From the IMG/VR virus record IMGVR_UViG_3300032086_000164, positions 1 through 20,843 of that record: DNA of 20,843 nt, one strand, 5' to 3'. The position numbers and the translations under genes were made by a program. The notes under the pieces are model-generated. The model was not told the origin of the DNA and did not search any database. It saw only the letters and a list, made by a program, of their open reading frames with translations. Of the stretch, positions 5,876 to 19,248 are shown piece by piece. Within the stretch, counting starts at the first letter, position 1. Every line of letters begins with the position of its first letter. The DNA comes from a virus.

Positions 5876-8754
5876 TGTAAAGCAACCTCAGGTATATCTT
5901 GATAAGATGGTGTTTGTCTATCAATATACCTATCGTATTCTTCTTTTAATGTTTCCCAGTTATAAGCTCCTAAACTTACAAATTCTGCTATTGGTTCTAA
6001 TATTTCATCAGTTAATTCTCTACCACTTCCAAATATTTCTAAAATTTGCCTTCTTCCAGATTTTGGTAAAAATCCAAATGTTTTATTAAAAAACGAAGAT
6101 TTGTTATTAATAATATCTGAGTGTAATAAATATTTGATATCATCCATAGTTCTTGGAACATCTGCATCAATCTCTTTAATAACAGGATCTATTTCAATAG
6201 TATAAGATTCTCTATTATCTTGTAATGGCATACCTTTCATAAATGATCCAGGATCTCTAATCATAATTAAATATTCTGGTGTATTTGCACCTTCTACTGG
6301 TTTAAATTGAAAAAAATCTAAATTATCATAAATATCTTCTACACTAGGTTCTCTATAATCTCCTTTTGGATTGTACAAAAACGGTAAATTTTCCATTAGT
6401 TCTTTTTTTACTATATTAAATCTGTCAGGATTATCTCCAAGTTCAGCTTCTTTTTGTCTTTGATAATCTACTAAAGCTACTTTAACTTGTGATGCTAAAT
6501 ACATAGATCCATTCTTTCCATTATATCCATTATCCACTAATGCTGTTTCTATTCCATGTTTCATCAACACAGGATTACCATTATCACTACTCATTGTTGA
6601 TACAGAAAAATTATTATCTCCCATTTTTTGAACAGCGTTTTGTAAAATAATAGGTAACTTTTCTTCTACTATTTTTTCTGCTCTTTCTGGATCTGTTTTA
6701 AATAAACTCATGTCCATGCTATTTGATAATTGTGTGTAAATAATACTATCTAAAAATTGTTTTGCTTCAGGTTTAAATTCAAAAAATACATTCGCATTAG
6801 CTGATAAAAATGGTTGTCCAGGTAATGCTTTATCTATTAAAGCACTAGCGTTATTTGAAAGTCCAACAAAACCCTTTTCTATTATTCCACTATCTGGTCC
6901 TTGTGGAGTTATAATACCTTTTTTAAATTGAACTAAAGAATCAATAGGCATATTTTCTGAATATTGAAAATCTGGATTACCTTGTAAACTATTCCATCCA
7001 TCCATCCACATTTTATTAATACTTGTATCTTTTACTATGTAATCAACTAATATATTTGTAAAACCACTTCTAATCTCATCATCAGCATGTTTATTTTCAA
7101 CTAACTCTGTTACGTTGTTTTTTATTTCATCAATATTTTCTGTAATCAATTTTTTATTATCCTGATAAAACTGAACTGAATCTCCAACACCATTGATTGC
7201 TAAAAATGCTGATGGACTAGATTCTCCACTTAGTGCATCCAACATATTATAAAAAGATAAATCAACTCCTTTAGATGTTAAATTACCTTGTGCTAAAGGA
7301 TTACCTTGTAATGTAAATTCTATTAGCTGTATATTTCTAATAATCTGGTCTGTATTTTCTTCTGCCATTTTTGGACTAGTAATGATATTTGATGTTTCTT
7401 TTAAAGAATCAGCAATAAAAGATGGAACTACGTTTTCATTAATCATCATGTCTAAAATATTATTAGTAGCACTAGATCTTTCATTAGAAGGTAATCTGTA
7501 TTCACTACTAAATCTTTCTATACTATATCCTTCATCTACTAACTGTATTTGTGCTACTTTATAATCTTCTAAAAATAACTTTAATTCTTCATCATTTTTA
7601 AAAAGAGTAATGTTGTTTTCTCTTAATAAGTTATTGTAAAAAGCAGTTTTGTTAATATCAACATCTGTAACTTTTAAAGCATCTATCAAAGCATATTTTT
7701 GATTTAACGTAGATACTAAATCTGTATCTGTATCTAATTCAAAATCCATCATAGATTGTTTAAATACATCTCTAGAAGATAACATTAACGTCTTTAGATT
7801 ATTAACACTAGTTTCATTAATCGTATCTGTTAATGCTTGTATTTCATCTTGATTCTCAAATGCAAGACTTCTATTACCTAAATCTATATCTGCTTTATTT
7901 TGTTCTATAATCTTTGTAACATTTTTATCAAATTCATTTAAAACTGAATTGACTTCATTCATTCCAAAACTATTACTTAATCTTAATTCATTTCCATTTC
8001 TATAATCTTCTTTAAACTGATTCACAGCTTGATTTGCTAAATCTACTTGATTTGGATCTCTGAAATCTACACCTTTGTAAAAAGACATAGCTAATCCATA
8101 CATTCTAACATTTTCTAAATCTAAAAATGTACTATCTACTTTTGATTTTATAAAAGCATCATTATATTGAATAGGATCTAAAGACTTACCTGAATCAAAA
8201 TTAATATCATTAATATCTAAAGATAAACTATTAAACTTTGTATCTATTTCATTTCTAAAAGTAATTGGATTTGTAACATCTGGATTTTCTAAAATTTTGT
8301 TAATACTATTAAAAGCATCTAATTTAATATTATCTAATTGATTGTTAATTGATCCATTAACATTGTTAAACATAATAGCATTAGATCTTTTTCTTAAACC
8401 ATCAAGTGTATCTATTCCTTTAAGGTCTAAATAGTTTTCAATGTATTTTGAATATCTTTTAGATGATGAGTTAATTAGTTCTTCTTTGTAACCTAATATT
8501 TCTTGTTGAGCTTCTGTTAAATCAGGCATATCCATGCCTTCTTGTTTAATTTTTAAATCATTTAAAAACTCAGCTGTTTTTACTTTAAAATCACCTTTCC
8601 AAATTTCATCCATAACTACTGCTTGTTGTTCAGCAATCTTTAATGCAGTTTCTCCAAATGATTGAATTGCAGTACCTAAACCTCCTCCTTGAGTTCTATT
8701 AACTGATATATTACCAGATACTAATGATGTTCTTTTTCCTCTACTAATTGCCAT
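5872..8754 (-). CDS. Internal virion protein C-like, DNA-ejection protein (T7 gp15 position)
   Basis: The protein has 960 residues if the ATG at 8754 is used. A TTG one codon upstream (8757) is a possible but less likely start: AGGAG lies seven bases before the ATG and only four before the TTG. The ATG shares its A with the TGA of the preceding gene (TGATG). The sequence is polar, rich in Asn, Asp, Ile and Leu, and looks mostly helical with no clear membrane span or enzyme motif. The N-terminus contains a Gly-rich VNRTQGGGLGTAIQSFGETA segment typical of internal core proteins. It sits between the gp14-like and gp16-like genes and probably forms the middle layer of the ejection assembly. This is one of the most AT-rich genes of the window (single 60-base lines counted by hand are 18-20% GC). 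Family assignment is by context. Confidence 0.72.
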   Translation of the reverse strand: MAISRGKRTSLVSGNISVNRTQGGGLGTAIQSFGETALKIAEQQAVVMDEIWKGDFKVKTAEFLNDLKIKQEGMDMPDLTEAQQEILGYKEELINSSSKRYSKYIENYLDLKGIDTLDGLRKRSNAIMFNNVNGSINNQLDNIKLDAFNSINKILENPDVTNPITFRNEIDTKFNSLSLDINDINFDSGKSLDPIQYNDAFIKSKVDSTFLDLENVRMYGLAMSFYKGVDFRDPNQVDLANQAVNQFKEDYRNGNELRLSNSFGMNEVNSVLNEFDKNVTKIIEQNKADIDLGNRSLAFENQDEIQALTDTINETSVNNLKTLMLSSRDVFKQSMMDFELDTDTDLVSTLNQKYALIDALKVTDVDINKTAFYNNLLRENNITLFKNDEELKLFLEDYKVAQIQLVDEGYSIERFSSEYRLPSNERSSATNNILDMMINENVVPSFIADSLKETSNIITSPKMAEENTDQIIRNIQLIEFTLQGNPLAQGNLTSKGVDLSFYNMLDALSGESSPSAFLAINGVGDSVQFYQDNKKLITENIDEIKNNVTELVENKHADDEIRSGFTNILVDYIVKDTSINKMWMDGWNSLQGNPDFQYSENMPIDSLVQFKKGIITPQGPDSGIIEKGFVGLSNNASALIDKALPGQPFLSANANVFFEFKPEAKQFLDSIIYTQLSNSMDMSLFKTDPERAEKIVEEKLPIILQNAVQKMGDNNFSVSTMSSDNGNPVLMKHGIETALVDNGYNGKNGSMYLASQVKVALVDYQRQKEAELGDNPDRFNIVKKELMENLPFLYNPKGDYREPSVEDIYDNLDFFQFKPVEGANTPEYLIMIRDPGSFMKGMPLQDNRESYTIEIDPVIKEIDADVPRTMDDIKYLLHSDIINNKSSFFNKTFGFLPKSGRRQILEIFGSGRELTDEILEPIAEFVSLGAYNWETLKEEYDRYIDRQTPSYQDIPEVALQ

Positions 8755-9201: not shown

Positions 9202-11397
9202 TTAAAATACTACCTCTAATGCTACACCTAATACCTTCAAAGGCAAAGGTGCTGTTTGTGTTATCTTTAATGTAGGCTCTCTGTCATAACCTAAAAAGAA
9301 AAACTCTTTCTTTCCTGTTACTTTCGCTACTGGAGCTGCTACATCAAAAGCAACATCTCTAATAACTAAACTTTTAGCAGTATTATCTGCTGCTTGTAAA
9401 GCTACATTTAAAGAATCTGATAAATCTATCACTGCCCTAGATATACGCTTTATTTCACCTGTTAATGGACCTGTAGATACTTCTCTATCTATTGGCATAG
9501 TTTCTAGGCTAGGTTCATAATTAAAACCAACTATTACACCAGCACTATGTGCTACATCAAATGTAATAGTATCACTAGCTGATGTTGTAAATGATCCTAA
9601 TGAAAATGTACCATCAACAGCATTAACAGTTTCTTCTGTTAAGTGAGCTGGACTGTTATGGACACGACCTGAAGTAATCGTAATTGCAGCATTGTCAGCA
9701 GGTGAAGAAGCTAAACTAGAATCTAATACAATCGTATATCCACTAGCAGTTTCAGTTACAGTTTGTATTTTATAACTACCAGTAACTCCAGCAATAGTAA
9801 TAACATCACCAGTATTAGGTGCAGATGTATATCCATCTACGTTTAAACTTGTTCCTGTTTGACTAGCTCCATTGACTAATGGAGTACCTTGTTGATTAAC
9901 TGTAGTTGTTGCAGAACAATCTAATGTTAAATCATCCTGTTCAGCAAACTTTTCTAATGTATATACAGTTCCACCTTCTATATCTCTTTTAACAACACAA
10001 AATAAGTTTTCATTAACAGCTGTAATACTAGTAAACTCATCACCACTCTTTGTACTCCATAATGTCCAACCAGCTATCTTTTCTGCACGTACACTATGAA
10101 ACAATGCTAGTGTTCCGTCATTGTTAGTAAAAAAAGCAAACTGTTCTGGTCTAGTTGTAGTACCTGTTATCATAGCCATATCGACTGGACCATTAACTAA
10201 ATGAGATGCTAGGATAGATATAGACGTAGAAGCATAAGCATTTTCTACATCACTAAATAAATACTCTCTAATCGACTTACCATTTTTTTGTGCATACAAT
10301 GTTGCACCATCAAATATAATAGGCTTTGCTCTACTACAACCATAAGGCGTTTGTCTAAGGAATGTAATATTAGCTGGTGTAACTGCAGAAGTATCTGTAG
10401 ATGTAGGAACAAAGTATTCACCACCATCTGTTAATACTTGTAAGTTTCTAGAAGATACTAAGTGTCTAATCTCGTTTACTCTATCACCAGATACAAATAC
10501 ATTAATAGCTTCATCAGCAAGTCCAGTACCTACATCAAAATTAAAATATCCACCAACTTGTGATCCTATTACAGCAGCAGGAGCATCTCTTACTCCTGCA
10601 AAGTATAGTCTATTATCATGAAAGGTAACTGCTTGAGGAAATCCTCTTTCAGCAGATATTAATTGTTCTTCAAAATTTGCATGAGGTCCAGTAGTACCAA
10701 CATCTTCTAATACAGTAGCAGTTGCTACTGTAGCATTAGTCCTAGCAGTAATAAAAACTTGTTTACCATTTATCTTTAAATAAGTATTGACATGATCTGT
10801 TGTAAAAAAATCTGCACTTGCTGTTAGTGTTCTACCTGTACCAGTAGCATGAGAAGATAATGTAATTGTTAAACTAGCAGCAGCATATTTATAAAATGGT
10901 TGTGTTGTTTTATTTACACCACCTACTGATACACTAGTATCTTCTTCAAACTCAAATGCAGATACAGTAAATGTAGTAGCACTTGTTCTTTTAATTTCTC
11001 TAATAGTATTATTTCTATGTGTTAAAAATACCGTATCTCCAAACTGTGCAAAGTTTAATTCAAATAACTGTGCTGTATTCCAATTACATCCAGAAGTAAT
11101 ATTTGTTTGTATCGATGCACCATTAGATCCAAAAACATCTAATCTATTATTAGATAAAACAAATACTGCTAGTTCATCATTAGAAAATATAAATGGTATA
11201 ACTCTAGATTCTCCTGGCAAAGTTGCTTTGTATGTAGTTCCAGGTCTACGCATAATACCACCTTCATCTAGTAAGTACCAATTACGTAAAGTCTTTGCTC
11301 CACTAAAGTAAGCATTAGCATCTGTTCTTGTAACTAATAAAGGATTAAGTTCACCACTTGAAAAGTTGGTATAAACAGTTCTTAGTGTACTAGCCAT
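9202..11397 (-). CDS. Tail tubular protein B (T7 gp12-like nozzle protein)
   Basis: The 731-residue product starts with the characteristic TNFSSGELNPLLVTRTD and continues with ALKRNW-like AKTLRNWYLLDEGGIMRRPG, the signature N-terminus of tubular protein B. In T7-like phages six copies form the tail nozzle below tubular protein A. The rest is beta-rich with Thr, Ser and Val, including GNQVGGYFNFD-like GSQVGGYFNFDVG, HDNRLYFAG and a C-terminal FFLGYDREPTLKITQ. The length is close to T7 gp12 (about 794). The ATG at 11397 overlaps the preceding TAA as TAATG, with AGGGGG five to six bases upstream as ribosome binding site. Tight coupling to tubular protein A supports the call. Confidence 0.93.
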   Translation of the reverse strand: MASTLRTVYTNFSSGELNPLLVTRTDANAYFSGAKTLRNWYLLDEGGIMRRPGTTYKATLPGESRVIPFIFSNDELAVFVLSNNRLDVFGSNGASIQTNITSGCNWNTAQLFELNFAQFGDTVFLTHRNNTIREIKRTSATTFTVSAFEFEEDTSVSVGGVNKTTQPFYKYAAASLTITLSSHATGTGRTLTASADFFTTDHVNTYLKINGKQVFITARTNATVATATVLEDVGTTGPHANFEEQLISAERGFPQAVTFHDNRLYFAGVRDAPAAVIGSQVGGYFNFDVGTGLADEAINVFVSGDRVNEIRHLVSSRNLQVLTDGGEYFVPTSTDTSAVTPANITFLRQTPYGCSRAKPIIFDGATLYAQKNGKSIREYLFSDVENAYASTSISILASHLVNGPVDMAMITGTTTRPEQFAFFTNNDGTLALFHSVRAEKIAGWTLWSTKSGDEFTSITAVNENLFCVVKRDIEGGTVYTLEKFAEQDDLTLDCSATTTVNQQGTPLVNGASQTGTSLNVDGYTSAPNTGDVITIAGVTGSYKIQTVTETASGYTIVLDSSLASSPADNAAITITSGRVHNSPAHLTEETVNAVDGTFSLGSFTTSASDTITFDVAHSAGVIVGFNYEPSLETMPIDREVSTGPLTGEIKRISRAVIDLSDSLNVALQAADNTAKSLVIRDVAFDVAAPVAKVTGKKEFFFLGYDREPTLKITQTAPLPLKVLGVALEVVF

Positions 11398-11993
11398 TAG
11401 TACCCCCTAGTGGTTAATCTGTTTGTTATAAATCTCTTTGTACTTAATTTTTTGTTTGTTACTTCTTGACTATCAGTATTCTTAGCAATTAACATTTGTC
11501 TTTCCGCTTCATCACTAAACTGTTTAATCATAGCTGCATCTCTAGCTACTGATCCAGCAAATCTAGAAGCTAATTTTAATTCTAGTGCATCTTTAAAATA
11601 TGCAGGAAACTCTGATTCATCTTGTCTAAATATATAATCAGCAATTAACGCTGACTGTGAATCATATCCATTAACAAATACTTTATCTCCATATCTAGCA
11701 TACTCAATAGGTACATCAGCGACTGTAATAGTATTTAATTGTAATAAATCTGGTGAAGTAGGTAGCTGATAAGCATATTCATATCTACCTGTAGGTGTTG
11801 CAGTTAATAAAGAAAGTTGTTGTTGTTCTGTTGCAAATCTCCATCTGTGTCTACACAATGTTGATTGCAATATATTTTCATAAATATTAGAAGCTACTAA
11901 TGCTTCTGTTGAACCATCATCAAAAGAAGATATAGGTTGTGCACCTATCATGGTCAAAGCTCTTGCGCAAATGTCTACTTTAGTATCTGCCAT
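11397..11993 (-). CDS. Tail tubular protein A (T7 gp11-like adaptor)
   Basis: At 198 residues it matches the usual size of tubular protein A, the gatekeeper ring between portal and nozzle. Diagnostic features are DICARALTMIGAQPISSFDDGS near the N-terminus (given in part; residues 7 onward), a HRWRFATEQ segment around residue 50, and a helical C-terminus with ALELKLASRFAG and MIKQFSDEAERQ. The ATG at 11993 is fixed by homology of the N-terminus, yet no Shine-Dalgarno sequence lies in front of it. Instead a G6/C6 hairpin ends eight bases upstream. Translation may therefore depend on RNA processing, a leaderless-like mode, or coupling. Confidence 0.93.
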   Translation of the reverse strand: MADTKVDICARALTMIGAQPISSFDDGSTEALVASNIYENILQSTLCRHRWRFATEQQQLSLLTATPTGRYEYAYQLPTSPDLLQLNTITVADVPIEYARYGDKVFVNGYDSQSALIADYIFRQDESEFPAYFKDALELKLASRFAGSVARDAAMIKQFSDEAERQMLIAKNTDSQEVTNKKLSTKRFITNRLTTRGY

Positions 11994-12001
11994 ATTTTAT
12001 A

Positions 12002-12020
12002 GGGGGGAATAAATCCCCCC
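12002..12020 (-). terminator. G6/C6 hairpin after the capsid/decoration genes; possible terminator or RNA-processing site
   Basis: On the transcribed strand the sequence reads GGGGGGATTTATTCCCCCC, a perfect six-pair all-GC stem with a seven-base loop, conspicuous in such AT-rich DNA. It lies seven bases after the stop of the 82-residue decoration-like gene and eight bases before the tubular A start. T7 has its Tphi terminator in the equivalent place, after the capsid gene 10. The bases that follow (TATAAAAT) are not a U-run, so it is an incomplete intrinsic terminator. It could instead attenuate, protect or process the late mRNA. Confidence 0.5.
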
Positions 12021-12027
12021 AATATCA

Positions 12028-12276
12028 TTATGCAAGTAATGCAGTTGTTACTGTAGAGGATGTTGCAGCTGATACGATTAAAATATCTACTACACCATTT
12101 GATCCACCACTGTTTACAATGATTACATCACCAGCATTTAAATCGTCTGTTGCTGATAAAAAGTAATCTGCATTATCAATAGTTCCTATAGCATCTCCGT
12201 CAGAGTAGTACCATAAGGAATTGCTATCTCCCATTTGAGAGATCTTCTTAATTGGATTTGAAGTTGCGTATGCCAT
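12028..12276 (-). CDS. Small capsid-adjacent protein, probable head decoration protein
   Basis: This 82-residue protein starts MAYATSNPIKKISQMG and continues with WYYSDGDAIGTIDNADYF and an Ala/Thr/Val-rich beta-type C-terminus. Small proteins with a MAYxTSNP start, a W-Y-S-x-D core and a DYF segment directly after the capsid gene are common in marine and other podophages, as far as I recall, and are usually taken as head decoration or minor capsid proteins. AGGAG overlaps the capsid stop codon and lies seven bases before the ATG, so it should be made at high level together with the capsid. The decoration role is an inference from position and composition. Confidence 0.7.
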   Translation of the reverse strand: MAYATSNPIKKISQMGDSNSLWYYSDGDAIGTIDNADYFLSATDDLNAGDVIIVNSGGSNGVVDILIVSAATSSTVTTALLA

Positions 12277-12285
12277 TATTTACTC

Positions 12286-13116
12286 CTACTCTGCACACTT
12301 CTGGATTCTTACACCATCACCATCAATTAGGACTGCTCCCATTGACATATATGAAGTTGTAAGGTGTGCTACTTTCTCAGGGATATAGTTTACTTCAGTT
12401 CTTACATCTGAACCTACACCCATACCTAGAGATGATTTATGGAAAGCAATAGTGTTTCTGTCGCTTGATGCGATAGATAAACCACTGAAACCCATCCACA
12501 TAAAAGACAACCATCTTTTAGCTGTCATTCCACCTTTGTAAGGTAGATCTGCTTCACCGATATATTCAGCTCTTGAGAACTGATCTATATCTAAAAGGTC
12601 AGACCACTGTTTTGGACCGACTACCCAGTATCTTTGTCCATCATCTGGCACATCATTGTTGCCAAAGATTTCAAAAACATTCTGAGCTTTGTCTAAGTTC
12701 ATACCAGTAGTTGAACCAGCAGAGTTATTAGCTAGTGCAGTTGCACCTGCATCAAAAGTATCAGTGATAATTGAGTCAGTCTTACGACCTAAAGCATATG
12801 CAGCGTTTTGTGCTACAATGTTTCTCTCATCAATGTTTACTTTTAGTTCGTCTAGTTTGTCTACGTAATCAGCAGCATAAAAGTCTGATAGTGTTGCAGT
12901 TACATTCGAGTGAACGGAGTTCATAGCGACAACCTCAGCGTGTCTTGCTTTAGTTGAAGCAGAACCCTTCGCTACTTTTTGGAACTGAACAGTATTACCT
13001 TTTACACCATTGACATTACGTACCATGGATTTCAATTTTGAACCCATACGTTGATAAGCCATGTGAACTTCAGCTTCAAACTGTTTCACAAATGCTTGAT
13101 CTATTGTTGCTGTCAT
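12286..13116 (-). CDS. Major capsid protein
   Basis: The 276-residue product is the shell protein: it follows the scaffold in the head module and has features of phage coat proteins. These include MTATIDQAFVKQFEAEVHMA at the N-terminus, GNTVQFQKVAKGSA, a DFYAADYVDKLD helix, a region with WVVGPKQWSDLL and a C-terminal ALIDGDGVRIQ. An HK97-type fold is inferred. It is somewhat shorter than T7 gp10A (about 345). A good ribosome binding site AAGGA (13124-13128) stands seven bases from the ATG, preceded by the longest untranslated stretch of the window. Codon choice is less AT-extreme than in the ejection genes, as expected for a very highly expressed gene. No slippery readthrough to a longer form is visible. 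Confidence 0.88.
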   Translation of the reverse strand: MTATIDQAFVKQFEAEVHMAYQRMGSKLKSMVRNVNGVKGNTVQFQKVAKGSASTKARHAEVVAMNSVHSNVTATLSDFYAADYVDKLDELKVNIDERNIVAQNAAYALGRKTDSIITDTFDAGATALANNSAGSTTGMNLDKAQNVFEIFGNNDVPDDGQRYWVVGPKQWSDLLDIDQFSRAEYIGEADLPYKGGMTAKRWLSFMWMGFSGLSIASSDRNTIAFHKSSLGMGVGSDVRTEVNYIPEKVAHLTTSYMSMGAVLIDGDGVRIQKCAE

Positions 13117-13228
13117 TGTGTTTTCCTTTTCATTTATTGTTTATTTCCAAGTTGTCGTCATAAACTTTCACTAAGTTATCCATTACTGGGCAAAGTCCAG
13201 TTTAAATCGGCTTGTTGATTCAGATATA
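13117..13228 (-). promoter_or_regulatory. 112-base leader upstream of the capsid gene; likely site of a late promoter
   Basis: This is the largest gap between genes in the window, which is otherwise almost gapless. It ends in the capsid ribosome binding site. On the transcribed strand it holds a 15-base imperfect hairpin (13186-13200, CTGGAC-TTT-GCCCAG, one A-C mismatch). Directly after it comes a stretch at 13165-13185 that begins TAATGGATAACTTAGTGA. The latter vaguely resembles the layout of a T7-type phage promoter (TAATacgactcactata), but only TAAT and scattered positions agree, so I do not assign it. I see no convincing host -35/-10 pair. Confidence 0.4.
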
Positions 13229-17564: not shown

Positions 17565-19060
17565 TTCTTCCTCCTATTCATGGAACTACGATCAAAAATA
17601 TTCCAGTTCTTATAAGCATTAGATACTTGAGGTTTAGCTGGACCTACAGTTAATGATCTACCTTCACCAGCACCTAGCATTAAATATTGCAGTGCATCAT
17701 GTACGTGTGAAAACTTATTCTTGTTAGGTTTATCTTCATATCTTTCTCCAGAAGTTTGGATTCTTCTGTAATGATATCCACCTAAAAATCCTTTACGTAA
17801 AGACTTACAAGATCTATTCAACAAAAAGCCAGGCTTACCATCTACCATTCTATTCAATGCAGTTTCTACTGATTCTATTCTGAGTCCTACATCATTAGAT
17901 GGTGCAGGAAAGGCTTGGATGCCTTGTTGTCTAAGTATTTGAAACGGAGTTGTTTCATCTGTCTGGGCTCTAAAATCTCCAGCAGGATCTCCAAATATTT
18001 TTAAATCTTTATCAGCACAATGTTTAATAATCTCATGTTTCAATAACTCACTAAACTTAACTGTGCCTATATCAAAACAAACGAGTTCATGCAGGATTAA
18101 CCATCTACCATCTGGTAGCTTCTGACCAAATACAGCAGAAGGTGTAAGACCAAAGTCTAATCCAATGTAAACAGTAACAGGTGCAAAAGGTACTTCTTCA
18201 TCTGCTAAGTGGACATCTTCTCTAAAGGATGGATAAACTAACTTACCATCTTCTATTGTTCCTAGTTTGTTTAAAACATAAACGTCAATCCAAGACTTAG
18301 ACTTTCCTCTTATAATATTGGGATAGTAATCTGGTGTAACATTTTTAATATTTTCTGCGTCAGCATTAAGTTCATAACCTTTAATCTTATCGTTTTCTTT
18401 CTTCTCAATCATACCTGGAGGTTGTACAAAAAATTTCCAGTTGTCTGGTTTGACTAACATCACAGATTCTTCTTGGCTCATATGATCTGGCATAGGAACT
18501 TCACCAGACATAATGGACCACCAGTGATCTTCATCAGGTGCGTTGGTATCTGCTATGACACCATACCAAGTAGGTCCACCATCTTTCATTGAAGGAAATC
18601 TACCAACACGCATTGTACACGCATCCACAATAGATTTAGGAATTTCTCTTGCTTCATTGATCCATACACCAGTTAATTCTAAAGACAATAGTTTCTTAAC
18701 ATCTTCTGGTCTATCTAGTGCCAGGAAGATAACTTCTAGTTCTACATCTCCTACATGAATGTTGTGTGTGTAAGGAACTGAGTACATAAAGTTACCAAAC
18801 GAGTTTTCTGGAAACCAATCTAACCATGTCTTAATGGTCGTTGTCTTTAACTGGGGGTTGGTATTTCTAATAACTGCCCATCTAGATTTACGTTTACCAT
18901 CTGGACTAGGTTCTTGTTTTAAGGCACGTCTAAAGATTTCAATACAACAGGATACAGACTTCCCTGATCCTACTGGACCACGTAATCCTCGAAAGAAGGA
19001 ATCATCCTTCATAAAGGTTTTAACGATTGTACCTGGAGCTTTATAGTTAAGTTCTGTCAA
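17537..19060 (-). CDS. terL: Terminase large subunit (packaging ATPase and nuclease)
   Basis: This 507-residue motor cuts concatemeric DNA and pumps it through the portal. The ATPase domain shows Walker A GPVGSGKS (28-35) and a Walker-B-like segment GVWINEARE (131-139). The RNase-H-type nuclease shows an acidic first strand YIGLDFGLTPSAV (Asp302), FGDPAGDFR (Asp358) and SHVHDALQYLMLG (Asp455). NYKAPGTIVKTFMKDDSFFR before Walker A fits the family, which supports the unusual TTG start at 19060. That TTG overlaps the preceding stop as TTGA. No good Shine-Dalgarno precedes it, so translational coupling is likely. An internal ATG at codon 17 would leave only 11 residues before Walker A and is less attractive. 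Confidence 0.95.
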   Translation of the reverse strand: MTELNYKAPGTIVKTFMKDDSFFRGLRGPVGSGKSVSCCIEIFRRALKQEPSPDGKRKSRWAVIRNTNPQLKTTTIKTWLDWFPENSFGNFMYSVPYTHNIHVGDVELEVIFLALDRPEDVKKLLSLELTGVWINEAREIPKSIVDACTMRVGRFPSMKDGGPTWYGVIADTNAPDEDHWWSIMSGEVPMPDHMSQEESVMLVKPDNWKFFVQPPGMIEKKENDKIKGYELNADAENIKNVTPDYYPNIIRGKSKSWIDVYVLNKLGTIEDGKLVYPSFREDVHLADEEVPFAPVTVYIGLDFGLTPSAVFGQKLPDGRWLILHELVCFDIGTVKFSELLKHEIIKHCADKDLKIFGDPAGDFRAQTDETTPFQILRQQGIQAFPAPSNDVGLRIESVETALNRMVDGKPGFLLNRSCKSLRKGFLGGYHYRRIQTSGERYEDKPNKNKFSHVHDALQYLMLGAGEGRSLTVGPAKPQVSNAYKNWNIFDRSSMNRRKKWDIFRRNG

Positions 19061-19248
19061 GCAATACCATTATCTACAGATTTTTTAATTAACTTGTAGA
19101 TAGTTTCTGGTAGCAAGGATTCTATAAATTTATCGGCTTCATGGTCCGAGAATCTTAGATCTTTAGGATAGTGTTTGAAATGTTCCTTCTTCACTATCTT
19201 ACGAAGTCTTTGACGATCCTCGTAAGATAGCTCCTCTGCGTACCTCAT
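19057..19248 (-). CDS. Unknown 63-residue helical protein immediately before TerL
   Basis: The protein is charged and helical, with MRYAEELSYEDRQRLRKIVK at the start, then KEHFKHYPKDLRFSDHEADK and LLPETIYKLIKKSVDN. I do not recognise a family. Its position directly upstream of and overlapping terL could suggest a terminase accessory or regulatory role; the DHEADKFIESLLPET stretch resembles small phage packaging-associated proteins only in general terms. The ATG at 19248 comes two bases after the stop of the 33-residue membrane peptide. It would be translated in the same chain as terL. Confidence 0.7.
   Translation of the reverse strand: MRYAEELSYEDRQRLRKIVKKEHFKHYPKDLRFSDHEADKFIESLLPETIYKLIKKSVDNGIA

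Follow-up and report, generated by a model that had tools for sequence, protein, structure and literature searches.

Phages require far more capsid than tail protein from one late operon. In T7, the annotated terminator Tφ (24210) is located between capsid gene 10 (end 24162) and gene 11 (start 24228), and it serves the phage RNA polymerase. Intra-operon structures without U-tracts can shield the upstream gene from 3′–5′ exonucleases, as described for malE in PMC5927463, where puf of Rhodobacter is cited as well. The phages treated here include HTVC010P-type SAR11 phages, which are the second most abundant known pelagiphage group according to PMC12753301. Among the papers listed for the open-access subset of the literature, none describes the hairpin reported below.

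The locus of interest lies in a window of 20,843 nucleotides, the whole stretch analysed (positions 1 to 20,843 of IMG/VR record IMGVR_UViG_3300032086_000164). A sequence-only reading of this DNA had compared a hairpin in the window with T7 Tφ by position. As Tφ likewise lies between capsid gene 10 and gene 11, the positional comparison holds. We propose, with moderate confidence, that the hairpin is an intercistronic stoichiometry element that would end the head part of a long late transcript and create a head-over-tail step, mainly by blocking 3′–5′ decay.

Methods

Relatives were fetched from IMG/VR by the tail protein, the 82-aa protein and two capsid proteins, in five scans with the best 80 loci taken from each, and isolates were added. 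Because the scans overlap, often returning identical contigs, and are limited to the best 80 loci each (for three of them, to the matches listed), all counts below are of distinct sequences and represent neither independent lineages nor a census. From all 365 listed loci having a capsid and a tail gene, 185 distinct flanks were drawn. As the last head gene, a script took the first ORF of at least 65 aa starting no more than 45 nt from the capsid stop. Single-linkage grouping of 125 distinct hairpin-plus-tail variants gave 12 groups, one of which holds 90. Pair counts used equal-length sequences only (13 HTVC010P-type and 19 window-type). The anti-Shine-Dalgarno (anti-SD) sequence, the 16S probe and the terminator score formula are assumptions of the analysis.

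Results

A G-first hairpin between the head and tail genes

The late genes of the window are on the minus strand and are ordered, in the direction of transcription, as a 112-nt noncoding gap, the major capsid protein (MCP) gene, an 82-aa gene, the hairpin and the tail gene (Table 1). We infer SAR11 as the host. The flanking genes have matches in a head family (MCP, phrog_3437) and a tail family (phrog_394), in agreement with the head/tail boundary drawn in the sequence-only reading. Its mention of "capsid and decoration" genes is correct for the capsid gene; "decoration" was a guess, because the 82-aa gene matches phrog_18004, a family that carries no assigned function.

Table 1. Features at the head–tail boundary of the window.
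Feature	Positions	Strand	Remarks
RNA hairpin, 7-pair stem, 5-nt loop (UUUAU)	12002..12020	−	Sequence and fold; conserved with compensatory changes
5′ arm GGGGGGA	12014..12020	−	Sequence and fold
3′ arm UCCCCCC	12002..12008	−	Sequence and fold
8-nt spacer UAUAAAAU, stem to next start codon	11994..12001	−	No U-run, no Shine-Dalgarno
Noncoding leader upstream of capsid gene	13117..13228	−	σ70-like match TTGTCT-17-TATAAT (10/12, 13256–13228) ends at leader 5′ edge
MCP gene, phrog_3437	12286..13116	−	61% identity to capsid of Pelagibacter phage EXVC031P Hodr
82-aa head-module gene, phrog_18004 (family with no assigned function)	12028..12276	−	Stop 7 nt 5′ of stem
Tail gene, tubular protein A type, phrog_394	11397..11993	−	Start codon 8 nt past stem; 43% identity to Hodr

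The minus strand, which is the transcribed one, carries GGGGGGATTTATTCCCCCC at 12020–12002, where the hairpin had been noticed from sequence alone, and the record contains a single copy. The stem consists of six G-C pairs and one A-U pair, begins 7 nt past the stop codon of the 82-aa gene and ends 8 nt short of the tail-gene AUG. The 3′ flank UAUAAAAU contains 3 U among its 8 nt, never two adjacent, so there is no U-run, as had been stated. Folding of 61 nt gave −19.7 kcal/mol (z −2.47), and 5 of 200 shuffles were equally good. In a window with a GC content of 34%, this is the sole all-GC stem of at least 5 pairs (loop 3–12) within 20,843 bases, and 0 of 200 dinucleotide shuffles gave an all-GC stem of at least 6 pairs. 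The hairpin noticed from sequence alone is thereby confirmed.

By energy, the head-end hairpin ranks second among six simple sense-strand hairpins at or below −12 kcal/mol. The strongest of these (19193–19231, minus strand, −17.4 kcal/mol) lies within a small ORF at 19057–19248. Two other identities were considered and rejected. A chance inverted repeat is ruled out by the 0 of 200 shuffles together with the presence of the hairpin in all 185 flanks of the listed loci. A known Rfam element was not found at gathering score anywhere in the window; around the hairpin there were five matches, with E up to 5, all below gathering score.

The hairpin is conserved behind the last head gene

In the first set (best 80 loci), the hairpin is found at the same place in 79 of 80; the remaining locus, L040, ends at the hairpin. 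Among SAR11-type phages and their kin (best 80 loci per scan), each of the 185 distinct flanks contains a GC hairpin 3′ of the last head gene. Energies in these flanks of the listed loci range from −12.2 to −24.7 kcal/mol, with 178 at or below −14. As a control, the remaining gene ends in these loci (796, defined by script-found ORFs) had a median of −3.9, and 29 of them reached −12 kcal/mol. All 11 isolates examined first carry the hairpin, as do HTVC022P and HTVC027P. HTVC027P (L577) also carries another U-less hairpin, whose loop is UUCG, at 36112–36168, behind gp62 and downstream of the capsid gene.

In the HTVC010P-type set, 14 of 14 pairs are formed in all 13 sequences, and 8 pairs have changed on both sides, a number reached in 0 of 500 shuffles. 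Sliding the arms by one column lowers pairing to 47–53%. In the window-type set, 7 of 7 pairs are formed in 19 of 19 sequences; the seventh pair is changed from A-U to U-A in 6 sequences, and another from G-C to A-U in 1. Only 2 pairs have changed on both sides in this set, a number also obtained in 29 of 500 shuffles, and 5 of 7 are invariant, and by these counts the compensatory evidence is thinner than in the HTVC010P-type set. The sequence-only reading had proposed to look for compensatory stem changes in related phages and had named a missing stem in relatives as grounds for giving it up. Such changes are found in both sets (8 pairs and 2 pairs, respectively), and since the stem is kept with them, the sequence half of that test is passed. 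Judged from these alignments, what is kept is the pairing and not the sequence.

Loops in the listed loci range from 4 to 19 nt, with a length of 4 nt in 52 of the 125 distinct hairpins. Of these 52, 35 have GNRA loops, and UUCG loops are present in 2 of the 125, as would be expected if the structure works at the RNA level. Any perfect inverted repeat also forms a palindrome in the DNA, and the element could be a protein, recombination or packaging site at the DNA level, or else a functionless inherited sequence whose arm orientation may simply have been handed down. We regard either as very improbable, given that loop length and sequence vary widely with pairing kept, that GNRA loops recur and that stem changes are compensatory.

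The arm orientation itself is uniform. In all 185 flanks of the listed loci, G outnumbers C in the 5′ arm (1211 G against 45 C in total), compared with 12 of the 49 control hairpins with an energy of −9 kcal/mol or lower. Common descent accounts for part of this, because flipping a G-C pair requires two transversions. HTVC019P/HTVC022P, HTVC027P, Baldr and MEP301 have dissimilar hairpins with the same G-first orientation. The orientation may be explained by the need to avoid a G-rich 3′ arm, which would place a Shine-Dalgarno (SD) sequence right in front of the following start codon.

The hairpin belongs to the head cistron

In 9 of 57 window-type flanks of the listed loci, the tail gene is separated by an inserted gene from the relative of the 82-aa gene (L138, L141, L145, L155, L192, L200, L202, L235 and L236), and the hairpin remains behind the 82-aa-gene relative. 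All seven inserted genes that were scored have an SD of their own. In 48 of 59 HTVC010P-type flanks (listed loci), the tail gene is more than 70 nt away, behind at least one small ORF, and the hairpin is at the head end. Greip and HTVC100P are without the small head gene, and there the hairpin is directly 3′ of the MCP gene. Because the hairpin stays at the head end despite insertions and despite absence of the small gene, its placement marks it as a 3′ element of the head cistron that travels with the head gene and not with the tail gene.

The sequence-only reading had treated the hairpin and the SD-less start codon as one pair. This pairing does not hold up, as the hairpin stays with the head cistron when an inserted SD-bearing gene separates the tail gene from it. 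The lack of an SD at the tail gene was correctly noted: anti-SD pairing at its start (11993) is +3.5 kcal/mol, the weakest among 16 window genes scored. Among the listed loci, an SD precedes the small head gene in 91 of 91 distinct start contexts and a tail gene close behind the hairpin in 10 of 79 starts. By these counts, tail genes frequently lack an SD, as a feature distinct from the hairpin. A role of the hairpin as part of the tail-gene start is ruled out by its position behind the head gene. A split ribosome-binding site, with the hairpin bringing an upstream SD near the AUG, was likewise rejected, since no SD-like stretch is seen by eye upstream of the stem.

The distances at this boundary would suit translational control, with the stem covering the initiation region of the tail gene and only ribosomes that arrive from the head gene gaining access to the SD-less start (coupling). 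The stem end is 8 nt from the ATG in the window, the next start is 0–30 nt past the core (mode 8) in the 125 variants of the listed loci, and an SD is present at only 19 of 125 next starts after the hairpin (listed loci). However, the hairpin stays when the following gene differs and has its own SD (e.g., L192, L200, L235 and L236), and by eye TTPA occurs without a preceding hairpin in L138–L142, L145 and L155. We consider translational control improbable as the main role of the hairpin, and continue to favour a block to 3′–5′ decay of the head mRNA.

U-runs, terminator scores and stop spacing

Among the features of an intrinsic terminator, the window has the stable GC hairpin behind a gene and is without the U-tract; by this comparison, the hairpin is not a textbook intrinsic terminator. 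A U-run of at least 5 is present in 13 of 125 distinct hairpin-plus-tail variants of the SAR11-type set (listed loci) and missing from the other 112. The 3′ flanks of these variants (listed loci) nevertheless contain a mean of 3.9 U of 8, compared with 2.3 expected from base composition (T fraction 0.287), and 41 of 125 have at least 5 U of 8. The terminator score, calculated by the assumed formula, is at least 0 in 41 of 125 variants of the listed loci (20 of 40 HTVC010P-type, 12 of 20 in the "win" group and 3 of 47 Hodr-type). Individual scores are +30.7 for HTVC010P, +4.6 for L083 (98% identical tail protein), −16.9 for the window, −33.6 for Hodr, −64 for Greip and −68.9 for Skadi. The U-enriched flanks, together with the scores of 0 or more in 41 of 125 variants, favour weak termination in many members.

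Wider relatives were also inspected. In 5 of 8 records (Vibrio D105, CKB-S2, 1.182.O, Yersinia YeP5 and a gut phage record), a stem at the same position is followed by U5–8, forming a textbook terminator. Alteromonas ZP6 has U4 some nucleotides further downstream of the hairpin position, and the hairpin of Dunaliella virus SI2 is not followed by a U-run. In the Manatee record, no hairpin comes after the small gene, but a long one (−27.1) comes after the next gene. Textbook terminators are also found in HTVC010P (U5), the L147–L149 and L342 groups, T7 and P-SSP7. In cyanophage P-SSP7 (L579, 5950–5995), the U-run of the capsid-end terminator almost reaches the tail ATG, which has no evident SD, a crowding as in the window.

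We searched for a T7-like RNA polymerase (PF00940) and found 0 in 12 related records, some of which are possibly fragments, as is the window; the positive control, HTVC019P, matched. Tφ proper, working with a phage polymerase, was rejected for the window because it has no U-run and no such polymerase was found in these 12 records. The U-run terminators at the same spot in wider relatives, taken with this polymerase search, also argue that this is not Tφ proper. Skadi, a relative that carries the head-end hairpin, is described in PMC10504331 as having no phage RNA polymerase gene and no identifiable terminators.

For two Pelagibacterales genomes, 766 gene ends were examined; their downstream gaps contain 27 strong hairpins, with a U-run of at least 5 (up to 8–9) in 14 and none of that length in 13. 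Some hairpins between convergent genes were counted on each strand, so the 27 do not equal 27 independent terminators, and two hits with gaps of more than 4,300 nt sit in long ORF-free stretches. The hairpins with U8–9 indicate that the likely hosts do have ordinary terminators.

These data bear on a different explanation, that the hairpin is a weak internal intrinsic terminator for host RNA polymerase, at which a partial stop leaves read-through to feed the tail genes and U-poor flanks lower the efficiency. It fits the textbook terminators that occupy this position in the relatives from Vibrio, Yersinia and the gut, in HTVC010P, in the L147–L149 and L342 groups, and in T7 and P-SSP7, as well as the U-enriched flanks and the 41 of 125 scores (listed loci) of at least 0. 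Clostridial transporter operons offer a precedent: internal terminators with long GC stems and low U set stoichiometry there (PMC9045158). However, a U-run of 5 is missing from 112 of the 125 variants of the listed loci, and whole groups keep the stem without one, with scores to match (Hodr-type above threshold in 3 of 47, Greip, Skadi and the window itself well below 0). Hosts, moreover, have hairpins with U8–9. The stem core also begins 5–14 nt past the stop in 115 of 125 variants (listed loci). In E. coli, a terminator a few nucleotides past the stop is repressed by the ribosome and is fully active only beyond about 27–30 nt (PMC4824070). We hold weak termination to be possible but somewhat doubtful as the main role, and retain decay protection as the preferred reading.

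The region upstream of the capsid gene

A promoter scan of the window gave 27 matches, fewer than the 51.5 in shuffles, so the σ70-like site before the capsid gene (Table 1) is a lead only; it is a possible start of the capsid cassette. The window leader (13117–13228, minus strand) contains blocks conserved in the clade, GCC...GGAYAAC and then GAYAA, but no more than 2 pairs in it are supported by RNAalifold.

A 58-nt structured leader RNA is located just 5′ of the capsid gene in HTVC010P-type phages (29 aligned sequences; HTVC010P, L237, 5802–5859). It forms three helices of 15 pairs, 8 of which have changed on both sides, and 0 of 500 shuffles score as high. An RNA model of it was built from 29 of 34 listed sequences, with five near-duplicates or mis-cut ones omitted. 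Each of the 6 phage records searched contains the leader a single time, no match was obtained in 3 Pelagibacterales genomes (150 candidates scored in each), and the model gave no significant match in the window, the other groups or HTVC028P (L405). Rfam returned one sub-threshold match, on the opposite strand, for the 241-base stretch containing the HTVC010P leader. Further along in HTVC010P (L237, 7261–7302), the annotated start of gp11 at 7275 falls inside the head-end hairpin (7273–7294); the true start may be the ATG at 7299, directly past the U-run.

Discussion

Present 3′ of the last head gene in all 185 flanks of the listed loci, the hairpin is a concrete candidate for the capsid-over-tail step. 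The sequence features of an intercistronic stabilising hairpin, namely a stem-loop between cistrons, no U-tract and conserved pairing, are all present. In the reading that we favour, RNA polymerase would mostly pass through the hairpin, because the flank has no U-run and the stem starts 7 nt past a translated stop. Following cleavage or Rho-type release further downstream, 3′–5′ exonucleases would remove the SD-less, poorly translated tail part and halt at the hairpin, so that stable capsid mRNA would remain and head mRNA would exceed tail mRNA. In lineages that bear a U-run, the same stem would also terminate a share of the transcripts; a stem with U-run termination is probably the ancestral state. 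Read-through, decay protection and the protein ratio are steps that we infer from conservation and context.

An extension of this reading, unlikely in its full form, is that SAR11 phages turned the ancestral U-run terminator into a U-less, strictly G-first/C-last hairpin that acts without termination. Opened by ribosomes completing the head gene, it would let polymerase pass; folded again after their departure, it would shield the capsid mRNA and hide the SD-less tail start, setting the capsid:tail ratio by decay and translation in several unrelated phage groups. If true, loss of the U-run would have turned a terminator into a block to decay, in phages of the most abundant marine bacteria. Public strand-specific RNA-seq exists for HTVC022P and HTVC027P infection (BioProject PRJNA1253180, named in PMC12753301); both phages carry the hairpin, and their capsid/tail junctions lie at 21039–21118 and 34952–35010, respectively.

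Among the closest known systems, T7 Tφ shares the position. Both hairpins lie between the capsid and tail tubular A genes, both start 7 nt past the stop, and an expression step is expected at both sites. However, T7 has a U6 tail whereas the window has no U-run, the T7 5′ arm begins C-rich and that of the window G-rich, and the next T7 gene has an SD whereas the window tail gene does not. P-SSP7 and the Vibrio and Yersinia relatives also have a hairpin at the same position, but with U-runs of 5–9. The clostridial ABC transporter operons share a GC-rich, low-U stem behind the 5′ gene, tied to stoichiometry (PMC9045158); they differ in that premature termination was determined there, and in hosts and genes. 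In Rhodobacter puf and E. coli malE-malF, as in the window, a stem-loop lies between a much-needed upstream and a less-needed downstream gene, with no reliance on a U-tract (PMC5927463). Half-life was measured in those systems; for the window hairpin, the evidence is conservation. Unlike either, the window hairpin belongs to the late operon of a phage and has been retained in many phage lineages.
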